IMG/VR virus record: IMGVR_UViG_3300038309_000202
Span: 1-29,739 of that record
Length of the DNA: 29,739 nt
Reading direction: 5' to 3' (one strand)
From: a virus
In this document: positions 1-11,862 of the stretch, piece by piece
How the letters are laid out: every line of letters begins with the position of its first letter
How positions within the stretch are numbered: the stretch's first letter is position 1
Translations under genes and position numbers: made by a program
The notes under the pieces: model-generated
What the model saw: only the letters and a program-made list of their open reading frames with translations
The model's database searches: none
What the model was told of the DNA's origin: nothing

Positions 1-58
1 GGGGGTGAACCGGCTTTTTGATCGGGGAGGTCGGTTTAATAATTATTATTGGTGGCCT

Positions 59-814
59 ATGAATGAAATAAGCTCGTTTATTAAATCCTTTAATGTCCTC
101 ATGGATCAACCCGGGGCGCCGTCTCAATCGGATCTGGCCAGAATGGTTGGCTGCTCTCCCGGGCACATTCAAAACATAAAAAAAGCTCGGGTGTTCGGAA
201 GTGAGCAGTTGCGCAGAAAAATTGCCGCCGCCCTGGGCACGACATATGAGGAAATGATCGGCGCCGACTTGTCTCTTCCATTGTCCAAGATGCCGGTTAT
301 TCGGTTTCCGTTTGCGGAGATTGCCGGTTTCCCTGACGGCCTCAAACCGTCTCAGCCGGGTGATTTGGTAATGATCCCCATTACTACCATCAGCGCTCTT
401 TTTGCTGGGCGTTTTAGGGATGTGAAAAACGATTTCTGCGGATATTTTGCCTGTACCGATGTGTCCGGAGAGCATCTGGTGGCCGTCCGGATGCCGGACG
501 ATTCCCTGGAGCCCCGGGCAAAAAAAGGCGCCATTCTGGTTGTTGACTGGGGCAATGGATTCTCTGACCGGGTTGATGACGGTGAGTTTTATGTCTGCGG
601 GGCACCCTGCCTTACGCCGGTGCGACAACTGTTTAATAATAATTCCGGTGGCGTGATCGCCGCCTCGCTGGACGGGGGTAAGACCCCGCCCCAGGTTCTG
701 GCTGGAGCCGATCTAGCCTCTATCAAAGGTAAAGTGGTGGCGATATACAATGAGGATAAACCCGGCCTCGACAATGCATCTTTTAAAGATGTGGACGAAA
801 AAGAAAACGGGTGA
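59..814 (+). CDS. CI/S24-type phage repressor, possibly non-cleavable
   Basis: Likely the lysogeny repressor that silences lytic promoters. Residues about 20-50 form a helix-turn-helix (SQSDLARMVGCSPGHIQNIKK, XRE-like). The C-terminal half resembles the LexA/CI/UmuD S24 peptidase fold. An Ala-Gly pair in EIAGFPDG near residue 89 sits where family members cut themselves, and MPDDSLEP supplies the nucleophile-position Ser at about residue 149. The downstream strand that should carry the catalytic Lys reads TPVRQLF, so an Arg (about residue 189) appears to replace it. The reading frame is open from a GTG at position 5, but the ATG at 59 places the first helix at the usual distance from the N terminus and is preferred. 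The start is not certain because the window begins only 58 bases upstream. It is the only regulator of this type here and it points away from the leftward operon. Confidence 0.82.
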   Translation: MNEISSFIKSFNVLMDQPGAPSQSDLARMVGCSPGHIQNIKKARVFGSEQLRRKIAAALGTTYEEMIGADLSLPLSKMPVIRFPFAEIAGFPDGLKPSQPGDLVMIPITTISALFAGRFRDVKNDFCGYFACTDVSGEHLVAVRMPDDSLEPRAKKGAILVVDWGNGFSDRVDDGEFYVCGAPCLTPVRQLFNNNSGGVIAASLDGGKTPPQVLAGADLASIKGKVVAIYNEDKPGLDNASFKDVDEKENG

Positions 815-3019: not shown

Positions 3020-4711
3020 CTATTCTCCTTTTCTGTTTTCCAGCAGCTTGACGTTGCTTGCGGTTATCTGACGGTTACACCCAAAGGCCTCGGTGATATC
3101 CTCGATTTCCTTTTCAGGGATATTCAGTTCCTGGGCGGCCTGGTGGGCATCTTTCAACCAGCCCTTGAGGCGGCCGAATTCGACATTGAGGCGCCGGATA
3201 AACTTCTGATTAAATTTTATGTGCAGGTTGCCATTCATAAAGGCCTTGACCCACATCAGGTTTTTGCCGTCGATATCAAAAAATTCTTTATTCTTATTGC
3301 TTTCCCATTCGCCGACGCTGAGACTGCTAAAATGAGGCCAGGTCTTAAAATTCAGGTTGTTGGCAATGGTTAACAGGTCGTTTATGAAGTCGTGGGCGGA
3401 TTGGTGCAGCTTATTCGGGTAATCATAGGTTCTATACTTATGCTCTTCTGTCTGAATGGCGCTCCAACGGTGAAGAACAATTCTTAATTCAAGGCCATAA
3501 TGGGTGCTGGTAGTCTTTTCTCTCCCGTATCTCCATCGATCATAAACAAAAGTCTTTTGGTTGGATTTATACATAAACACATTGGCGTCGCTGATCATCT
3601 CCTGGACGGTTTCAATCAGCTGCTGGTCATAGTATTTATTGGCGTTTTTAATCACCCATATCAGCACGGCATAAATGTTGGATTCGGTAAAATCCACGTT
3701 GGTTTGTGCTGTGAGCTTGTCCAGCATCTTTTTACGGCTGCCGGTTGTGAGTCGGTCTGTGATGTCGTCCAGGTTGTTAAATAGCTCTTTCCAGTACCTG
3801 TATTTAAGGCCTGTTATCCGCTTTTCTAGGGCCTTCTGGACGGTGCCCTTTGTCACCCCCAACTCGTTTAATACGTCAGCATCCAGGGCGGCGATTTTCT
3901 TGAAATTGTCGTACAGGTGACGCATTTCATGGTTATAGAGCTGCACCAGCATCGGGACTTTGCCCCGGCCGCCAATTATAGCTTTTTCCAGCTTGGCCCG
4001 GAGTGTTGACCCTGTGTTACTGGCCCGGGGTTTGTCGTTTGCTTCCTGAAACTTGAACTCTTCATCAAACCAGACATAAAAGGGGTTAATCGGCTCACTG
4101 TGATAGTGGTTGTTTTTAAATCTTCTTGACCTGGTCAAGTCGATATAAACCACGTCGACCTCGGCCCGGGCGGCCCGCTCGGCTTTTGTGAAGTTAAAGC
4201 CGCCGATCGACTTTGAGGCCGCCTCACGTTTTTTTATGGCGGCCTGAATTCCCGGGGAGTCTTTCCACCTGGTGGGCATAACCAAAAAGACTTTTTCGGT
4301 GTTTGCTTCCAGGATGATCTTGCGAGCCCATGCTTCGAATTCTGAATAAGGCGGGTTACAAAAAACAGCATCAACTTTTTTATCGATCAATGTTGACTGA
4401 AAAAAATCTGTGCCAATTATATAAATGTCGGCGGGCATGGCCTGAATGAGGGGCGTGGCTTTTTCGATGGCGTATTTATCACCGTCCGTTAATTCGGTTA
4501 AAACCCGGCCATCTCCGGCGCCAACATCTAACACGCTATCATTATTCCCTATTCGGCTTTTTATTACGTCGATAATTTCCGGCGTGGTCGGGTACCATTC
4601 AAAATCCTGGTTTTCTTGTTTTAGGGTTTCAACCATTTCTGTGGTGGTTGGTTTTTTGTCCGGGCCCTGGTTCCCATACTCCAGGGCTTCGGCTAATTCC
4701 AGCTGTCTCAT
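3020..4711 (-). CDS. Adenine-type DNA methyltransferase with DUF4942-like C-terminal region
   Basis: A 563-residue protein. The N-terminal third is a class I SAM-dependent methyltransferase: a FxWYPTTPEI lead-in (about residue 37), the SAM-binding motif VLDVGAGDGRV (60-70) and the catalytic motif CNPPYSEF (118-125). An NPPY motif is typical of N6-adenine or N4-cytosine amino-methylating enzymes. The remaining 350 residues are not a standard target-recognition domain. The end, with FMNGNLHIKF and RLNVEFGRLKGWL, resembles DUF4942, which I recall fused to phage methyltransferases. It probably protects phage DNA from host restriction, matching the antirestriction gene of the same operon. No restriction endonuclease accompanies it. 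The ATG at 4711 has GGAGA upstream and a GGACACCA/ACACCA leader. Confidence 0.8.
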   Translation of the reverse strand: MRQLELAEALEYGNQGPDKKPTTTEMVETLKQENQDFEWYPTTPEIIDVIKSRIGNNDSVLDVGAGDGRVLTELTDGDKYAIEKATPLIQAMPADIYIIGTDFFQSTLIDKKVDAVFCNPPYSEFEAWARKIILEANTEKVFLVMPTRWKDSPGIQAAIKKREAASKSIGGFNFTKAERAARAEVDVVYIDLTRSRRFKNNHYHSEPINPFYVWFDEEFKFQEANDKPRASNTGSTLRAKLEKAIIGGRGKVPMLVQLYNHEMRHLYDNFKKIAALDADVLNELGVTKGTVQKALEKRITGLKYRYWKELFNNLDDITDRLTTGSRKKMLDKLTAQTNVDFTESNIYAVLIWVIKNANKYYDQQLIETVQEMISDANVFMYKSNQKTFVYDRWRYGREKTTSTHYGLELRIVLHRWSAIQTEEHKYRTYDYPNKLHQSAHDFINDLLTIANNLNFKTWPHFSSLSVGEWESNKNKEFFDIDGKNLMWVKAFMNGNLHIKFNQKFIRRLNVEFGRLKGWLKDAHQAAQELNIPEKEIEDITEAFGCNRQITASNVKLLENRKGE

Positions 4712-5523: not shown

Positions 5524-6378
5524 TTAAGCGGCGTGTGCGGCTTTGATTTCTTCTGATTCAGCGGTTTTAATGATCAGATCGACACAAGAGCAAATACGGT
5601 CAATCAGCTGCATGATTTTTCTGATTGTTTTCTGTGTGTCGCCTCCGGCGTAGTGCTTTACATAATCCCAGGCGCCGCCGAGATCGGCTTCATGGTGGTA
5701 TCCCATCAGGGACAGGAGAACAGCGCCGCCGACTTCGGCAACAATTTCATTATCTGGTTGCTGGCCGGGTTTTTTGGTAATCGTGCCGTTTTTGTCGTCT
5801 GCTGCGTGGGTGAGTTCGTGGCACCAGGTAGCAAGGTTTTCAACGCCCAGGGCGATCGTGCCGCCGTGTGAATAATAACCAAGGGCGCCGCCTCCCTTGC
5901 CGTTGTAGCTGGTCACGTTCAGGCCCCATGCCTTAGCGACGTTAAAAAGGGGGATTGATTCAAGGCGCTTTTCCTCATTGGTATCAATGCCGCCTGCCTG
6001 CTCCCATTTTTCGGGGTCGAAAACTTCCGTGCTTTCAATCGCAAAAACAGGAATTGATTTAAAACCATAAAGAAAGGTTTTTTCTTCCCCGGTCTCGGCG
6101 TCTTTACGTTTGGCGATGCAGGGCCCGAGGATATGAAAAGCCCGGGCGCCTTTCTTAACCTTCCGGCCTGCATTTTGCCACTGTCTAAAACCTCGTGCGT
6201 CTGCCGTGCCTGCTATGGCCATCATAAAACGATTTGACCAGCTCCAGGCGGTAGAGGGTATGTTGTCACTGCGATTGACAAAAATAGGCTTTAAGGCCTC
6301 CGGCAGGTTGCCTGCCCGAAAAGTATCAATCATCATCTGACAAACATCTTCACTTTTTCCGTAAAACTTAATGCTCAT
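5524..6378 (-). CDS. ArdC-like antirestriction protein with zincin domain
   Basis: The first gene of the leftward operon, 284 residues. The N-terminal half (about 45-110) has the ArdC/LtrC-type single-strand DNA-binding signature: WSWSNRFMMA, DARGFRQWQNAGRKVKKGARAFHI. The C-terminal half is a metallopeptidase-like domain with WCHELTHAAD (HExxH at 187-191) and a downstream NEIVAEVGGAVLL segment that could supply the third zinc ligand. Proteins of this type on conjugative plasmids and phages protect incoming DNA from restriction enzymes. The length and domain order match the family. First position after the promoter fits early expression on entry. A leader with three ACACCAT units precedes AAAAGGAG and the ATG. 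Confidence 0.85.
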   Translation of the reverse strand: MSIKFYGKSEDVCQMMIDTFRAGNLPEALKPIFVNRSDNIPSTAWSWSNRFMMAIAGTADARGFRQWQNAGRKVKKGARAFHILGPCIAKRKDAETGEEKTFLYGFKSIPVFAIESTEVFDPEKWEQAGGIDTNEEKRLESIPLFNVAKAWGLNVTSYNGKGGGALGYYSHGGTIALGVENLATWCHELTHAADDKNGTITKKPGQQPDNEIVAEVGGAVLLSLMGYHHEADLGGAWDYVKHYAGGDTQKTIRKIMQLIDRICSCVDLIIKTAESEEIKAAHAA

Positions 6379-6897: not shown

Positions 6898-6963
6898 GTT
6901 TTTATTTTACTTTCTTTTGATTTCTTTTGAAAACGGACACCAAAACAGCGCAGGGGGGTGAGT

Positions 6964-7563
6964 ATGTCAAAAACAATTTCTTATCTGAGGGTATCCACGG
7001 CGGATCAAAATCTTGACAAGTTCCGGGCGGACGTTCTCCAGTTCGCCAGTGAAAGAGGTTTTGGCCGGGTGGAATTCATCACGGAAAAGATTTCCGGAAA
7101 GGTGCCATGGCGGGCCCGTAAGATCGGGGCGGCCGTCGATGGCCTGGGGCCGGATGATCAGTTGATCGTTCCTGAGTTGTCCCGTCTCGGCCGGTCTACC
7201 ATTGAGATTTTAGAGATCATGCAGGAAGTCAGGGCCCGAGGCGCTTCCCTTTATGCGGTCAAAGGATCATGGCAGTTTGATGATTCAATCCAAAGTAAGG
7301 TTTTTGCTATGTTTTTCGCCATGATGGCGGAAATAGAGCGGGATCTTATTTCATTAAGAACCCGGGAAGCACTGGCCGCAAAGCAGGCGGCCGGGGTGAA
7401 GTTGGGCCGCCCGCCTGGCCCAGGGAAAAGCAAGCTGGACGATCACGCCGAAAATATCAAGGCCTGGCGGGAGACACAAACCCCGAAAAGCTGGATTGCT
7501 AAACAGCTGGGCACATCAACCCAAAACCTTTCAAACTGGATGAAAAAAAATGGCGTTAAATAA
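6964..7563 (+). CDS. Small serine recombinase (resolvase/invertase family)
   Basis: A 199-residue site-specific recombinase that cuts and rejoins DNA through a Ser-DNA link. The catalytic Ser is in SYLRVSTADQN near residue 10. Further family landmarks are SRLGRST near residue 76, the AMMAEIERDLISLRTREALAAKQAAGVKLGRPPG hinge helix and linker (about 121-155), and a C-terminal helix-turn-helix (SWIAKQLGTSTQNLSNWMKK). This is the length of Tn3-type resolvases and Hin/Gin invertases, not of the 450-residue-plus serine integrases used for prophage integration. The ATG at 6964 sits five bases after AGGGGGG, and the in-frame GTG at 6958 overlaps that site. Likely roles are dimer resolution of circular phage DNA, or inversion of a segment not seen here. 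Confidence 0.9.
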   Translation: MSKTISYLRVSTADQNLDKFRADVLQFASERGFGRVEFITEKISGKVPWRARKIGAAVDGLGPDDQLIVPELSRLGRSTIEILEIMQEVRARGASLYAVKGSWQFDDSIQSKVFAMFFAMMAEIERDLISLRTREALAAKQAAGVKLGRPPGPGKSKLDDHAENIKAWRETQTPKSWIAKQLGTSTQNLSNWMKKNGVK

Positions 7564-7614: not shown

Positions 7615-7760
7615 ATCGCCGGGAACCCGGAACCGGGAGACCCGGGCATACCCCCCTATAATAATAGCCTGTATGGGATTTTTTAAAAAAACTGGGTTTT
7701 TAAGGTGGTTACAAACTTTTAAAAGAAGCGTTGGGATAAATCCGATGGGGCTGCGGGGAG

Positions 7761-8074
7761 CAAGACAGTTTTTATCTACTGTCTTGCCCTGTCTTGTCCT
7801 GCTGTCTTGCTCTTTAATAATAAATAAATAAATAAATTAAATATATTATATATATATATATATAGAAACAAGACAACAAGACAGTGTTTTCTTAAATGAT
7901 ATATAGAAAATGTAAATTCGTTTAGAAAATTTTACAAAGACCATGATGATATTCTTTAAAAGTGTTTCTTTCTTTGATTTTTGTGTCTTGTTGTCTTGTT
8001 TTAGTGTTTTATTTAATAATATCAATAATTTAATGCAAGACAAGGGGGCGGCTTGCCGGCGTCTTGCTGTCTTG
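7761..8074. promoter_or_regulatory. Iteron-like origin candidate (CTGTCTTG array around an A/T tract)
   Basis: The octamer CTGTCTTG (first base variable) occurs as CAAGACAG at 7761. It is direct at 7779, 7789 and 7802. Tandem reversed copies lie at 7869 and 7877, and tandem direct copies at 7983 and 7991. Another reversed copy is at 8036, and direct copies stand at about 8060 (partial) and 8067. Between the clusters, 7813-7864 is wholly A/T, with TAAA repeats and a long TA run. Direct-repeat arrays beside an easily melted tract are the hallmark of iteron origins of plasmids and phages. The whole noncoding gap (7564-8089) has no supportable gene. A weak promoter (TTGTCT 7991, TAATAA 8014) may serve the next gene. 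Confidence 0.65.
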
Positions 8075-8089
8075 TTGGGGAGGTATTAA

Positions 8090-9595
8090 ATGGCATCTAT
8101 ACAACAAATTCTTAATAAATACAGAGGGGTATCCACACACCCCGCTGCGTCTTGTCCGCCCGCACAAGCGCCTCCTGTTAAACCGGCTTCTACCGCCCAC
8201 AGGCCGGCGGAAAGGGTCGACCTGTCCGGCCGGAAAATCCATATCGATATTGATGCTCGGGCCTGGATAGACTTGTCCGCCATTCCCGAAGCCGCGGCTA
8301 AAGAGATGCAGTCCGCTTTTACGGTGCCGAACCCTGATTACAAAAAAGCGAAAAGGTACGGCAATAGATTAACGCCTCCGGATCCTTTTCTGCACGCCTT
8401 TGAAATTTCTGACGACAATCGCCTTGCTTTCCCCAGGGCCAGCCTGCGGTGGCTGATAGATTATCTCCAGAGTCATGGCGCTGCCGTAGAGCTGAACGAT
8501 ATGACGGTTTCGGCCCGGCTGGATGAAGAGATTAACCTTAACGATACGCAGTCATGGCCGTCTTCCGCTTCTGTGTTGTTTGAAAAACGTTTTGGTATAT
8601 ATGTTGGGGATGGGGATGGTCGTCGTCGGTTTGCTGCTCATATTATTTCTCAGAGGGGTGAGCGAACATTGGTGGTTGTAAAGCGTAAGCCGCAGTTATA
8701 TCAGTTTAGGGATGCTCTGTGTCGTTATACGTCGTTACAACAGGATCAAATTGGGCTCGTGGGGGATGGTAAGATGATTATCGATAAGCCGGTTATTATC
8801 GCCATCGATCGAAGTTTGTGGAAGTGTATATCAAATCTGCCGCCGATTGGACAGGTGATTATTGCCCGGGCCGACCAGGTGAATATGAAGATTTTTTATC
8901 GCGTCGCCTGGGGATTGCCTGCAAGGTATTTGCTTGGCCTGGCCGCCATGGACCATCGCAGTGATGGCCTCACCCGCATGATGGTTGCTTTTTGTGGACC
9001 GGTCCGGTACCGGCATCAGCAGCCGGCGGTTCTTCCGGAGTTTATGCCGCGTGTTGATGTTTTAAAAACAACCGGTGATTATACCGGTAATAATGAATAC
9101 GACCCGGCCGTCACGCAGTTATTGGAAGATGATGAACGCACCCGTCGTATTGCCGGAGATATATTAAGCCTGGCAGCATCCGGAAATCAGGTTGTTGTTG
9201 TCTCGTCCCGCGTCGATCACCTGGAAAAAATCAGGGGCCTTTTAAGTGATCAGTATAAGGAGGCCCGGGTTGTCTTTGGTAGAACCACAAAGACTCAGTT
9301 GGATGATATTCTTGCAGCATTTAATAATAAAAATATTCAGATTTTATTAACTACAACAAAAACCGTCGGGGCTTTAAAGATAGACACCAGGGCGCAGCTG
9401 GTGGCTGTTGTGGCTGCGCCATTCAAGTATCGTGATACAGCAACCAGTATTGTCCATCTTTTGCGGAGCGGTGGTCCTGGCCGGGATCCGGACAGGCTGA
9501 TCGAATATTCTGACAATAGCCGGTTTTTTACGGCTGCCCTCGGGTACCGGTTAAATACATACAAACAGCTTGGATTAAAAGTGATTTCGGGTTAA
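8090..9595 (+). CDS. Helicase-fold protein with degenerate SF2 ATPase motifs
   Basis: A 501-residue protein. The N terminus is Pro/Ala-rich and resembles the lead domain of phage SF2 helicases (NPDYKKAKRYGN, then FPRASLRWLIDYL, about 80-125). A helicase outline follows: LNDTQ (Q-motif-like, about 150), GIYVGDGDGRRR at 169-180 where GxGxGKT is expected, ERTLVVVKRKPQL, IGLVGDGK, VIIARADQV at 256-264 where the DEAH box should be, and ARYLLGLAAMDHRSDGL where helicases have LTATPxRxDGL. The C-terminal lobe (about 345-480) keeps its strand pattern (QVVVVSSRVDHL, IQILLTTT, VAVVAAPF) but has SIVHLLRSGG in place of QxxGRxxR. The Walker Lys, DEAH acids and arginine finger all appear lost, so ATP hydrolysis is unlikely. 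The ATG at 8090 follows GGGGAGGT. It sits directly beside the CTGTCTTG array. Confidence 0.7.
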   Translation: MASIQQILNKYRGVSTHPAASCPPAQAPPVKPASTAHRPAERVDLSGRKIHIDIDARAWIDLSAIPEAAAKEMQSAFTVPNPDYKKAKRYGNRLTPPDPFLHAFEISDDNRLAFPRASLRWLIDYLQSHGAAVELNDMTVSARLDEEINLNDTQSWPSSASVLFEKRFGIYVGDGDGRRRFAAHIISQRGERTLVVVKRKPQLYQFRDALCRYTSLQQDQIGLVGDGKMIIDKPVIIAIDRSLWKCISNLPPIGQVIIARADQVNMKIFYRVAWGLPARYLLGLAAMDHRSDGLTRMMVAFCGPVRYRHQQPAVLPEFMPRVDVLKTTGDYTGNNEYDPAVTQLLEDDERTRRIAGDILSLAASGNQVVVVSSRVDHLEKIRGLLSDQYKEARVVFGRTTKTQLDDILAAFNNKNIQILLTTTKTVGALKIDTRAQLVAVVAAPFKYRDTATSIVHLLRSGGPGRDPDRLIEYSDNSRFFTAALGYRLNTYKQLGLKVISG

Positions 9596-9755: not shown

Positions 9756-10397
9756 GTGCCTAAATCATGTATCATAGAACGTGAGGGACATTCCGATACG
9801 GTTCAGCAACTCATGACCGAAGGGATAAATACGCGCGCAGAAATGACGGCCGTGCTTCGTGATAAGTACGGCCTTTCTGTTTCTGAGGCCACTGTGGGCC
9901 GGTTTATGGCCAGGGTTCGTTCAGCCGCCGGCGAAGAGGCTTATCATACCATCACTAAGCATGTTAATGAGGTCCTGCCTGGCGATCTGGAGGCCTTGGA
10001 AGAGATTGAAAAAACATGCCTGGAGTGGTCGCGTGAGGCCGGGATCGATACAAAAGAGCGGATCGCCGAGGCTGTTGGTAATATTCAGCGGGAGATTGCT
10101 GAGTTTACATCGATACTCGTTAATTCAAATGATCCGGAAAAAGTCGCCAAACAAATTCTTAAAAAGTGCCTGGGGTATATCCTGGCAGACGATCGTCGGC
10201 AGGAACAGCGCCTGTCGGCCATGCGCAACGTTCAAAAAATCATCGAACTAAAACTCAACAAAGCCGGCCTACTGGATGACGATCAGAACGGCCGGATTAT
10301 TCTTGTTAAAAACCAACATCAGGATGACAGTCCGCCAGACAATAATGGTGATGGCGGCCGCGTTCTTCATTTAATCGGAGACAATACAAATGGGTGA
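9756..10397 (+). CDS. Terminase small subunit-like protein
   Basis: A 213-residue, mostly helical protein just before and overlapping the large terminase gene, the usual place of the small subunit that recognises phage DNA. The N-terminal part (IIEREGHSDTVQQLMTEGINTRAEMTAVLRDKYGLSVSEATVGRFMARVR) looks like a winged or helix-turn-helix domain of the DUF3486/Mu gp27 type. A long coiled helical region (ALEEIEKTCLEW to ILKKCLGYI) and an acidic tail follow. The only start in frame near the boundary is GTG 9756, far (12 bases) from the GAGGA site. A better placed ATG at 9749 is in another frame and stops after four codons. See the findings. Confidence 0.65.
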   Translation: MPKSCIIEREGHSDTVQQLMTEGINTRAEMTAVLRDKYGLSVSEATVGRFMARVRSAAGEEAYHTITKHVNEVLPGDLEALEEIEKTCLEWSREAGIDTKERIAEAVGNIQREIAEFTSILVNSNDPEKVAKQILKKCLGYILADDRRQEQRLSAMRNVQKIIELKLNKAGLLDDDQNGRIILVKNQHQDDSPPDNNGDGGRVLHLIGDNTNG

Positions 10398-11862
10398 GGC
10401 GGCCGTAAAAACAACAACTATTCGAAAGAATGATTTTGTTTTCAAGTTTTCTCCCACCCAGGAAAAGTTTGTTTATTCCGACGCGGAAGTCGTTATTTTT
10501 AAAGGCCCCATGGGAGAGGGTAAAACCTTTGCCGGGGTCGGCGCCCTGATCGCCCATGCCAAGCGATGCGGCTGTGATATCCGGGGCGCCTTAGTCCGCG
10601 ATACCCATCAAAATATTAAAATCTCAACCGTACCATCTATTAAAGAGATTCTTGGTAATCGCGTTACATTTCATGACGACTACAAAAAAATGATCATCCA
10701 TTCGTCTCCAAAAGTGGAGATGGACCTGTTTGGTATTGATGATCCAGCCAGCTTATCAAAACTCCAGGGACCGGAATATGCCATTATCTGGCTGGAGGAG
10801 CCGGCGCCTATTATTGAAAAAGCCAACGCGGGTTTGCCGCGTGGTGTGTTTGATATGTCGATCGCCCGGGCGGCCCGGCAGTCAAAAACGAAAATGCGGG
10901 TGCAGGTTACCCAAAACCCGGCCGACGAGGACCATTGGACCGAAGAGGTGGCCAACGGCCCGAAGATCCTTGCAACCGACCCTGACACGGGTGAACAGAT
11001 CCGGCTGGATGTGTTTAATATTCCGTATGGTGAAAATAAAGAGTTAAACGCCAAGGCCAGGGTGGCTAACCGGGCGGCTTTTGCTAATGATAAAGGCAAA
11101 TTTCAACGGTACGTCCAGGGTGTTGCCGCAAGCGTCTGCCAGGGCAAGCCGGTTATCGGCAATTATAATCAGACCATACATTACTGTCAGCACGAGCTTG
11201 AAGTGGTGCCCGGCGCCCTGGGTGTGCGCGGTTGGGATGGGTGGCATCACCCGGCCTGTATTGTCGGCCAAATGATACCTCCCGGCCGGCTGATCATCCA
11301 TGATGTCTTATGGGATATCGGTGTCGGTGTTAAAGAGCTGATCGAGTTAAAGCTCCTGCCGCTTTTGGAGACGCCAAAATATAAAGACAAGATTATTCAG
11401 TGGCGCGATATCGGCGACCCATCAATGACGACGCCGAACCAGAATTCTATCGATGAATCCACATCCAGGACACTTGAGGACCTGCTTAAACCGGCTTCTT
11501 TTGAGCCGGGCCCGACACACTGGAAATATCGCATCGATCCTGCTGTTTCTGCTTTTCGCAACCTTGCCACAGACGGCAATCCCTTAATCCAGATTTCCGC
11601 ATCCGCCTATTACCTTCACCGGACGCTGAACGGTGGCTGGTATTGGAAAACAGACAACAATAATCGAATCATCGGGACAAAGCCGATCGGTAAAGACGGC
11701 ATGCCGCACGTCGGCGACGCGCTTCTATATATTTTGGCGCTGCTTTTTCCATCAAGCGGGAGGGGTAAGTCGGAAAATAAAAGAAAAAACATTGGCATGA
11801 AAGAACAGATGGCCCGGGCTATGAGTTACTCTATGACCCGCCGACCGCCTGCGAGGGCTTAA
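10390..11862 (+). CDS. terL: Terminase large subunit
   Basis: A 490-residue DNA-packaging motor. The ATPase half has Walker A GPMGEGKT (39-46) and Walker B AIIWLEEP (131-138) with the catalytic Glu, followed by the coupling-type segment QVTQNP (about 172-177). The nuclease half shows the acidic residues of an RNase H-like fold: RGWDGWHH (Asp 283), QWRDIGDPS (Asp 340/343) and HVGDALLYIL (Asp 443). It cuts concatemeric DNA and pumps it into the prohead through the portal. The ATG at 10390 overlaps the small-subunit stop by 8 bases. The order small subunit, large subunit, portal is standard. Confidence 0.95.
   Translation: MGEAAVKTTTIRKNDFVFKFSPTQEKFVYSDAEVVIFKGPMGEGKTFAGVGALIAHAKRCGCDIRGALVRDTHQNIKISTVPSIKEILGNRVTFHDDYKKMIIHSSPKVEMDLFGIDDPASLSKLQGPEYAIIWLEEPAPIIEKANAGLPRGVFDMSIARAARQSKTKMRVQVTQNPADEDHWTEEVANGPKILATDPDTGEQIRLDVFNIPYGENKELNAKARVANRAAFANDKGKFQRYVQGVAASVCQGKPVIGNYNQTIHYCQHELEVVPGALGVRGWDGWHHPACIVGQMIPPGRLIIHDVLWDIGVGVKELIELKLLPLLETPKYKDKIIQWRDIGDPSMTTPNQNSIDESTSRTLEDLLKPASFEPGPTHWKYRIDPAVSAFRNLATDGNPLIQISASAYYLHRTLNGGWYWKTDNNNRIIGTKPIGKDGMPHVGDALLYILALLFPSSGRGKSENKRKNIGMKEQMARAMSYSMTRRPPARA

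Follow-up and report, generated by a model that had tools for sequence, protein, structure and literature searches.

A catalytically eroded SF2 helicase-like gene adjoins a candidate iteron origin in a clade of phages

Introduction

A helicase fold stripped of its motor residues, encoded directly beside an array of short DNA repeats, raises the question of what such a protein could be kept for. We address this question for a 501-codon gene in virus record IMGVR_UViG_3300038309_000202, where the whole stretch of 29,739 nucleotides that was analyzed is referred to as the window. An original prediction, made by reading the letters of the window, had proposed that the gene retains the layout of a phage SF2 helicase, that four of its catalytic motifs have been replaced, and that it was selected for a non-catalytic role at the adjacent array, possibly as a new class of replication initiator.

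Results

The pseudo-helicase is an SF2 helicase by descent

The intact frame of 501 codons that the original prediction had placed at 8090-9595 is found at exactly those coordinates, and the gene is organized as follows.

8090-9595, plus strand: pseudo-helicase gene, ATG start, 501 amino acids, XPB/UvsW-type SF2 fold without catalytic motifs
8099-8122, plus strand: N-terminal helix, residues 4-11 (IQQILNKY), from alignment, DSSP and pLDDT
8231-8500, plus strand: N-terminal domain, residues 48-137, with a counterpart in the N-terminal regions of UvsW and XPB (VIA-align)

The proposed helicase layout is confirmed by a Pfam Helicase_C match (27.2 bits versus a cut-off of 23.5), by a PHROG DNA-helicase family (E 2e-16, residues 182-424) and by full-length tblastn matches to plasmid SF2 helicases (best E 3e-31, 26.5% identity), with weaker matches in phages. 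The nearest PDB sequences are those of XPBII, which profile A4 matches with an E value of 4e-18. Homology extends across both RecA-like domains, which identifies the protein as an SF2 helicase by descent. The nearest motif-intact full-length homologues are SF2 proteins of plasmids (pGEOTH02, pDRET01 and longer DEAD/DEAH proteins such as WP_180736943), which are about 24-28% identical to the window protein along its whole length. Unlike the pseudo-helicase, these proteins have intact motifs, and in many of them the helicase part is fused to ~350 N-terminal residues that we take to be primase-like. As a separate observation, pDRET01 (L003) carries eleven ACCGCTC/GAGCGGT words in two opposed blocks at 3842-4184, which fall within the frame that encodes a 488-aa HTH protein, and this gene directly precedes that of a close motif-intact relative helicase; the reading frame of the pDRET01 helicase is itself broken at motif II.

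Structure prediction, one of the checks proposed at the outset, gave an SF2-like model with an XPB/UvsW fold and an N-terminal domain. The AlphaFold2 model reached a pLDDT of 85 and a pTM of 0.72 from a 17-row alignment, and folding from the single sequence gave a pLDDT of 37. The input alignment contained intact helicases, and the model is therefore not independent of the homology described above. The best Foldseek matches were XPB (E 1e-18) and UvsW (E 4e-18), and VIA-align returned Z scores of 20-23 over most of residues 48-501 (1rif, Z 20.9 over 48-308; 6p4f, Z 22.1 over 48-489). No DNA-binding domain additional to the helicase-like fold was found in the window protein. The protein resembles UvsW, XPB and T5 D10-type helicases in its fold, its arrangement of an N-terminal domain and two RecA-like domains, its sequence homology and its PHROG and Pfam matches, but differs from them in lacking the Walker A, DExH, SAT, motif V and motif VI residues and in possessing an additional N-terminal helix and linker. 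This (L)LNKY-like helix is present in most of the phage pseudo-helicases and is missing from the intact pGEOTH02 helicase. Residues 12-45, which follow it, form a variable, fast-changing, disordered linker; regional identity is 63% in the helix and 24% in the linker.

Erosion of the catalytic motifs is shared by the pseudo-helicases of the clade

Motif columns were judged by alignment to 17 motif-intact homologues. Each of the four replacements originally described lies on the correct column, and the former motifs are located as follows.

8606-8629, plus strand: former motif I (Walker A), residues 173-180, GDGDGRRR replacing xxGxGKTx
8864-8878, plus strand: former motif II (DExH), residues 259-263, ARADQ on the DE[CAV]H column
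8939-8953, plus strand: former motif III, residues 284-288, LAAMD replacing L(S/T)ATP
9368-9373, plus strand: former motif V, residues 427-428, GA replacing EG
9446-9469, plus strand: former motif VI, residues 453-460, SIVHLLRS replacing QxxGRxxR

Inspection of the GxGKT column reveals that G, K and T are kept in 17 of 17 intact homologues, and the window protein has neither the Lys nor the Thr. Asp, Glu and His are all gone from motif II, as are the Gln, the Gly and both Arg residues from motif VI. Three losses go beyond those first reported, namely His198Lys in motif Ia, Gln241Arg in motif Ib and the change of Glu427-Gly428 to Gly-Ala in motif V. The window protein thus has no GxGKT Walker A, no DExH/DEAH box, no SAT and no arginine finger. 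The conserved residues P66, N81, P82, D137, G222 and G225, which lie outside the motifs, are kept.

Relatives were reached through the neighborhood. A single-protein scan of viral_contigs returned no relatives of the pseudo-helicase, and neither its alignment A5 nor the terminase found a match when each was scanned against GTDB genomes; the large terminase, used as an anchor, retrieved 34 viral contigs. Including the window, eight distinct phages carry the pseudo-helicase, on separate contigs of a single phage clade.

Carriers besides the window: L018, L019/L020, L021/L022, L025, L034-L038 (= G008), L044/L045 (= G001) and L093 (= G013), the last located through a DNA pattern

Alignment of these homologues, which had been suggested as a means of learning whether the loss is common, indicates that it is common to all seven. 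The Glu and His of motif II, the Walker A Thr and the SAT Thr are gone from 8 of 8 pseudo-helicases; within motif II, the Glu is lost and His262 is replaced by Asp in each of the seven aligned proteins. These seven also keep R290, D292, G303, R350, H377, G397, P444, D475, R487 and Y491. L044 and G008 have GAGKK or GSGKK at the GxGKT column and QAVGR or QAVGK at motif VI, L093 has a GSGKK P-loop and a QAVGM motif VI, and the five members of the window group have no motif remnant. Judged from the alignment, the motif loss is old and shared, and it is graded, running from GAGKK/GSGKK in L044, G008 and L093 to nothing in the window group.

Homologues sharing the loss are 35-51% identical and their frames are open, with open frames in all full-length members at 25-63% identity, and codon position 3 diverges more than positions 1 and 2 in every pseudo-helicase pair. 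A sequencing error as the cause of motif loss was ruled out, as several independent contigs carry the same loss. Because the loss is shared, the frames are open and codon position 3 is the most divergent, the constraint suggests that selection maintains a role in which ATP hydrolysis is dispensable, and it speaks against error or decay. Together with the SF2-like model, these observations support the idea of a non-catalytic role put forward in the original prediction.

The adjacent array has the anatomy of an iteron-type origin

The intergenic region upstream of the pseudo-helicase contains the following elements.

7651-7690, plus strand: conserved non-coding box CCCCCC...TATGGGATTTTTT, 110 bp left of the window array, found in 13 records
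7761-8074, no strand assigned: iteron array, 10 copies of TGTCTTG (8-mer CTGTCTTG, at most one mismatch), orientation order -+++--++-+
7813-7864, no strand assigned: pure A/T run of 52 bp flanked by the left iteron cluster on one side and the first inverted pair on the other, a candidate unwinding element
7866-7883, minus strand: inverted iteron pair with an 8-bp period, an 18-nt arm that is the perfect complement of 7984-8001
7984-8001, plus strand: direct iteron pair with an 8-bp period, matching 7866-7883 over a distance of 100 nt

The window contains 11 copies of TGTCTTG where 2.7 would be expected, a count equaled in 0 of 100 shuffles, and 10 of the 11 copies fall within the 314 bp at 7761-8074 upstream of the pseudo-helicase gene. 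When the intergenic region was searched de novo for 7-mers, the same word emerged with 10 copies, where shuffles gave at most 4 (0 of 200). The array first noticed in the letters is thus real and clustered, but it is not a simple direct repeat, as its copies lie in both orientations. The A/T run is the longest in the window. Clustered short repeats together with an AT-rich element characterize iteron-type origins, and from this anatomy alone we infer that the array is a candidate replication origin. GC skew gave no origin signal across the window, and no RNA families or tRNAs were found in it.

Array layout is conserved while the word changes

The same array layout with differing 7-8-bp words is present in 7 of the 8 pseudo-helicase phages.

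Window: CTGTCTTG
L018: CTGTCCCG
L019: TGTTCACA
L021: CTGTCTCA
L044 and G008: CTGTCACA
L093: TGGATCGG
L025: GGCGTTCCG, less sure, with few copies on a cut contig

Exact 7-mer scans with shuffles support the clustering in each full array and weakly in L025. Steps within the left cluster are 8, 10 and 12 bp in L044, G008 and L093 and 18, 10 and 12-13 bp in L018 and the window; beyond it lie an A/T run and then, in most cases, a pair spaced by 8-9 bp, which ~100-120 bp separate from an inverted pair. Comparison of the window with L018 reveals ten consecutive iterons in the same orientation, with a word that differs at two positions. The two aligned pseudo-helicases that resemble each other most, those of L044 and G008, belong to phages with one word in common. 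Wherever enough sequence upstream of a pseudo-helicase is available, an iteron/AT-tract array of this common layout directly precedes the gene, such that the adjacency originally seen in the window holds, as an association, in the relatives as well.

The association does not extend to every array. The pseudo-helicase is absent next to the arrays of L039, L040, L029 and L032, several of these contigs being short. L039 and L040 have pair-type arrays with switching words and no pseudo-helicase on the contig, and a reader other than the pseudo-helicase must therefore be allowed for. The arrays of the two sister phages L040 (1124-1415) and L039 (about 1980-2270) are distinguished mainly by a single base of the word, which changes from GTCCAG to GTACAG in step at nearly all copies with flanks alike, a clean concerted iteron change with no pseudo-helicase on the contig. 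A different array geometry occurs in L029 (6010-6297) and L032 (5770-6156), phages that also lack the gene, where words GTCCAAAG(TT) are mirror-placed about an A/T run with steps of 65,19 / 19,65 and 84 / 84.

The conserved box to the left of the window array consists of a C-run, ~20 bp and [TG][AG]TGGGATTTTT (CCCCCC...GGGATTTTT). It is present in most clade phages tested, with no match in L029, L024 or L025.

Positions of the box, first set: L018 999, L019 5195, L021 3301, L026 4120, L031 601, L032 6862
Positions of the box, second set: L039 2988, L040 2205, L041 7015, L044 104, L072 7867, G013 9555

Where the pseudo-helicase is absent, the box lies near the small terminase gene, and it is a candidate cos/pac site or promoter. 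In phages with the pseudo-helicase, array and gene lie together on its right, and where the gene is lacking the array is on its left; because array and gene share a side and the array is opposite when the gene is missing, their arrangement suggests a linked cassette.

Neighboring genes and candidate readers of the array

The array and the pseudo-helicase are flanked by the following genes.

6958-7563, plus strand: serine resolvase/invertase gene preceding the array, with conserved counterparts in L018, L019 and L021
9756-10397, plus strand: probable small terminase, an HTH protein whose gene immediately precedes that of the large terminase and overlaps it, present in relatives and named by position
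10390-11862, plus strand: terminase large subunit, the anchor for finding related phages

The small terminase candidate has no significant family match. Its HTH helix SEATVGR[FY] and the resolvase HTH helix GTS.QNLS.W are each nearly constant in four phages with four words, and because these recognition helices stay constant while the word changes, both proteins are judged unlikely readers of the iterons. The G013 small terminase row, translated in the wrong frame, was left out of this comparison. The pseudo-helicase is the least conserved of four neighboring genes, at 39-51% identity versus 52-69%, 63-85% and 67-80%.

Inspection of replication genes among the relatives reveals a CHC2-type primase-helicase just upstream of the array and pseudo-helicase in G001, G008 and G013, the relatives whose pseudo-helicases are least eroded. 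A D5-type primase-helicase is present in L026, L029, L031 and L041, all without the pseudo-helicase; a D5_N primase was accordingly ruled out as its partner. Neither type was found on the window, G009 and G010 contigs, which are partial, and no DnaB-type helicase was found in 11 records. On the terminase tree, replication type is clustered, with 6 changes, fewer than in 200 of 200 shuffles, a result to which near-identical rows contribute.

Several other features were recorded. To the left of the array, a minus-strand block contains a methyltransferase and a DUF4942 protein (3020-4711) and an ArdC-like antirestriction protein (5524-6378). A CI-like repressor gene opens both the window (5-814) and L021 (196-993), so that neither contig includes the genes on its left, which may be early or replication genes. 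G003, G005 and G006, which have no pseudo-helicase, encode giant multidomain proteins in open frames 3,400-4,300 codons long that match Helicase_C.

Discussion

We propose that a dead XPB/UvsW-type SF2 helicase, conserved in one clade of terminase-related phages, now serves the adjacent putative origin as a factor that binds DNA without acting as a motor, a reading to which we assign a probability of roughly 0.45. Against it stand the arrays of sister phages that have no pseudo-helicase on the contig, the lack of a DNA-binding domain besides the helicase-like fold and the absence of a GC-skew signal in the window. Under this proposal, the pseudo-helicase would occupy the array, the putative origin, without acting as a motor, and once bound would help to assemble or recruit the replication apparatus. 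The recruited apparatus would be the phage CHC2-type primase-helicase in some relatives and unknown or host machinery in others, and the conserved N-terminal helix on its flexible linker may serve as a docking peptide. How the protein would contact DNA is a more tentative matter. By analogy with AddB and RecC, whose inactivated helicase domains recognize Chi (PMC4824097), the dead motor groove might itself read the 8-bp iterons, although we hold this to be the less probable case. Marginally more doubtful again is the hypothesis of a new initiator class, in which a dead SF2 groove reads 8-bp iterons and word and protein switch together on a fixed array geometry; that the pseudo-helicase is an initiator at all is likewise offered as a hypothesis. 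No description of a dead helicase at a phage origin was found in the open-licence literature.

The strongest competing explanation, which we nonetheless regard as unlikely, is that the protein is a non-catalytic subunit of the replisome or recombination machinery, either a scaffold or a protein that binds branched DNA and derives from a branch-migration helicase of the UvsW/D10 type. Its position beside the array would then reflect the clustering of replication genes, and another protein, such as the primase-helicase, would read the iterons. Homology and fold do point to UvsW, to XPB and to the phage helicase family of T5 D10, and what SF2 proteins usually bind is a structure, not a sequence (PMC5180179); a CHC2 primase-helicase lies immediately upstream in three relatives, and arrays occur without the pseudo-helicase. 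Against this, the array persists on the window, G009 and G010 contigs with no visible primase, and the pseudo-helicase is the only gene that directly adjoins the array in 8 of 8 phages. A packaging function is improbable by comparison: the array would be a cos/pac site read by the small terminase, with the pseudo-helicase unrelated to it. The array and the conserved GGGATTTTT box both lie upstream of the small terminase gene, and cosB-like sites also pair short repeats with bendable DNA, yet the small terminase recognition helix hardly varies among four phages whose words all differ, and the G001, G008 and G013 arrays lie several kb from the terminase genes while still directly beside the pseudo-helicase.

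Phage pseudoenzymes can act on the host or its defenses, and the left arm of the window carries ArdC-like antirestriction and methyltransferase genes, so that the protein could be a decoy or inhibitor with no role at the array. We consider this slightly less probable still, as a position right after the array (in the window group, between array and terminase) is unlike that of an accessory gene, and the antirestriction genes sit in a separate minus-strand block. That the gene is functionless and in decay is very improbable. Its motifs have been lost progressively along the clade, but such a fate is already contradicted by sequence conservation, given the open frames at 25-63% identity, the retention of constrained positions outside the motifs and the fixation of the His262 to Asp change in 7 of 7 proteins.

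Known systems resemble the proposed origin-binding factor in part. AddB and RecC likewise have a helicase fold stripped of its motifs, in their case co-opted for a short DNA word; they are SF1 proteins within a helicase-nuclease complex, whereas the pseudo-helicase is SF2, has no nuclease, and its reading of a word is only proposed. Iteron replicons with modular initiator/origin pairs, among them lambda O and P4 alpha, resemble the window in having short repeats near an AT-rich element, but their initiators carry known DNA-binding domains, none of which was found in the pseudo-helicase. For PLE RepA, origin and initiator covary and words change between relatives (PMC8263062). In herpes simplex UL9, an SF2 fold acts at a viral origin whose binding boxes are repeated (PMC12543377), although the motifs of UL9 are intact and origin binding resides in a separate C-terminal domain; the pseudo-helicase has neither. 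Besides AddB/RecC, a precedent for the reading of a word is T5 D10, a member of the same superfamily as the pseudo-helicase, which initiates unwinding in a sequence-dependent manner (PMC5180179).

Within one gene of one phage clade, these proteins offer a natural gradation that begins with a near-active P-loop (GSGKK) and ends with every motif gone, a series that shows a route from helicase to non-motor protein. Should the array be read by the pseudo-helicase, the protein would parallel, within SF2, the AddB/RecC domains that read Chi and would provide a simple system consisting of one protein, one 8-bp word and many natural word variants, in which it may be possible to study how the specificity of an origin changes in step at ten sites while its function is retained.
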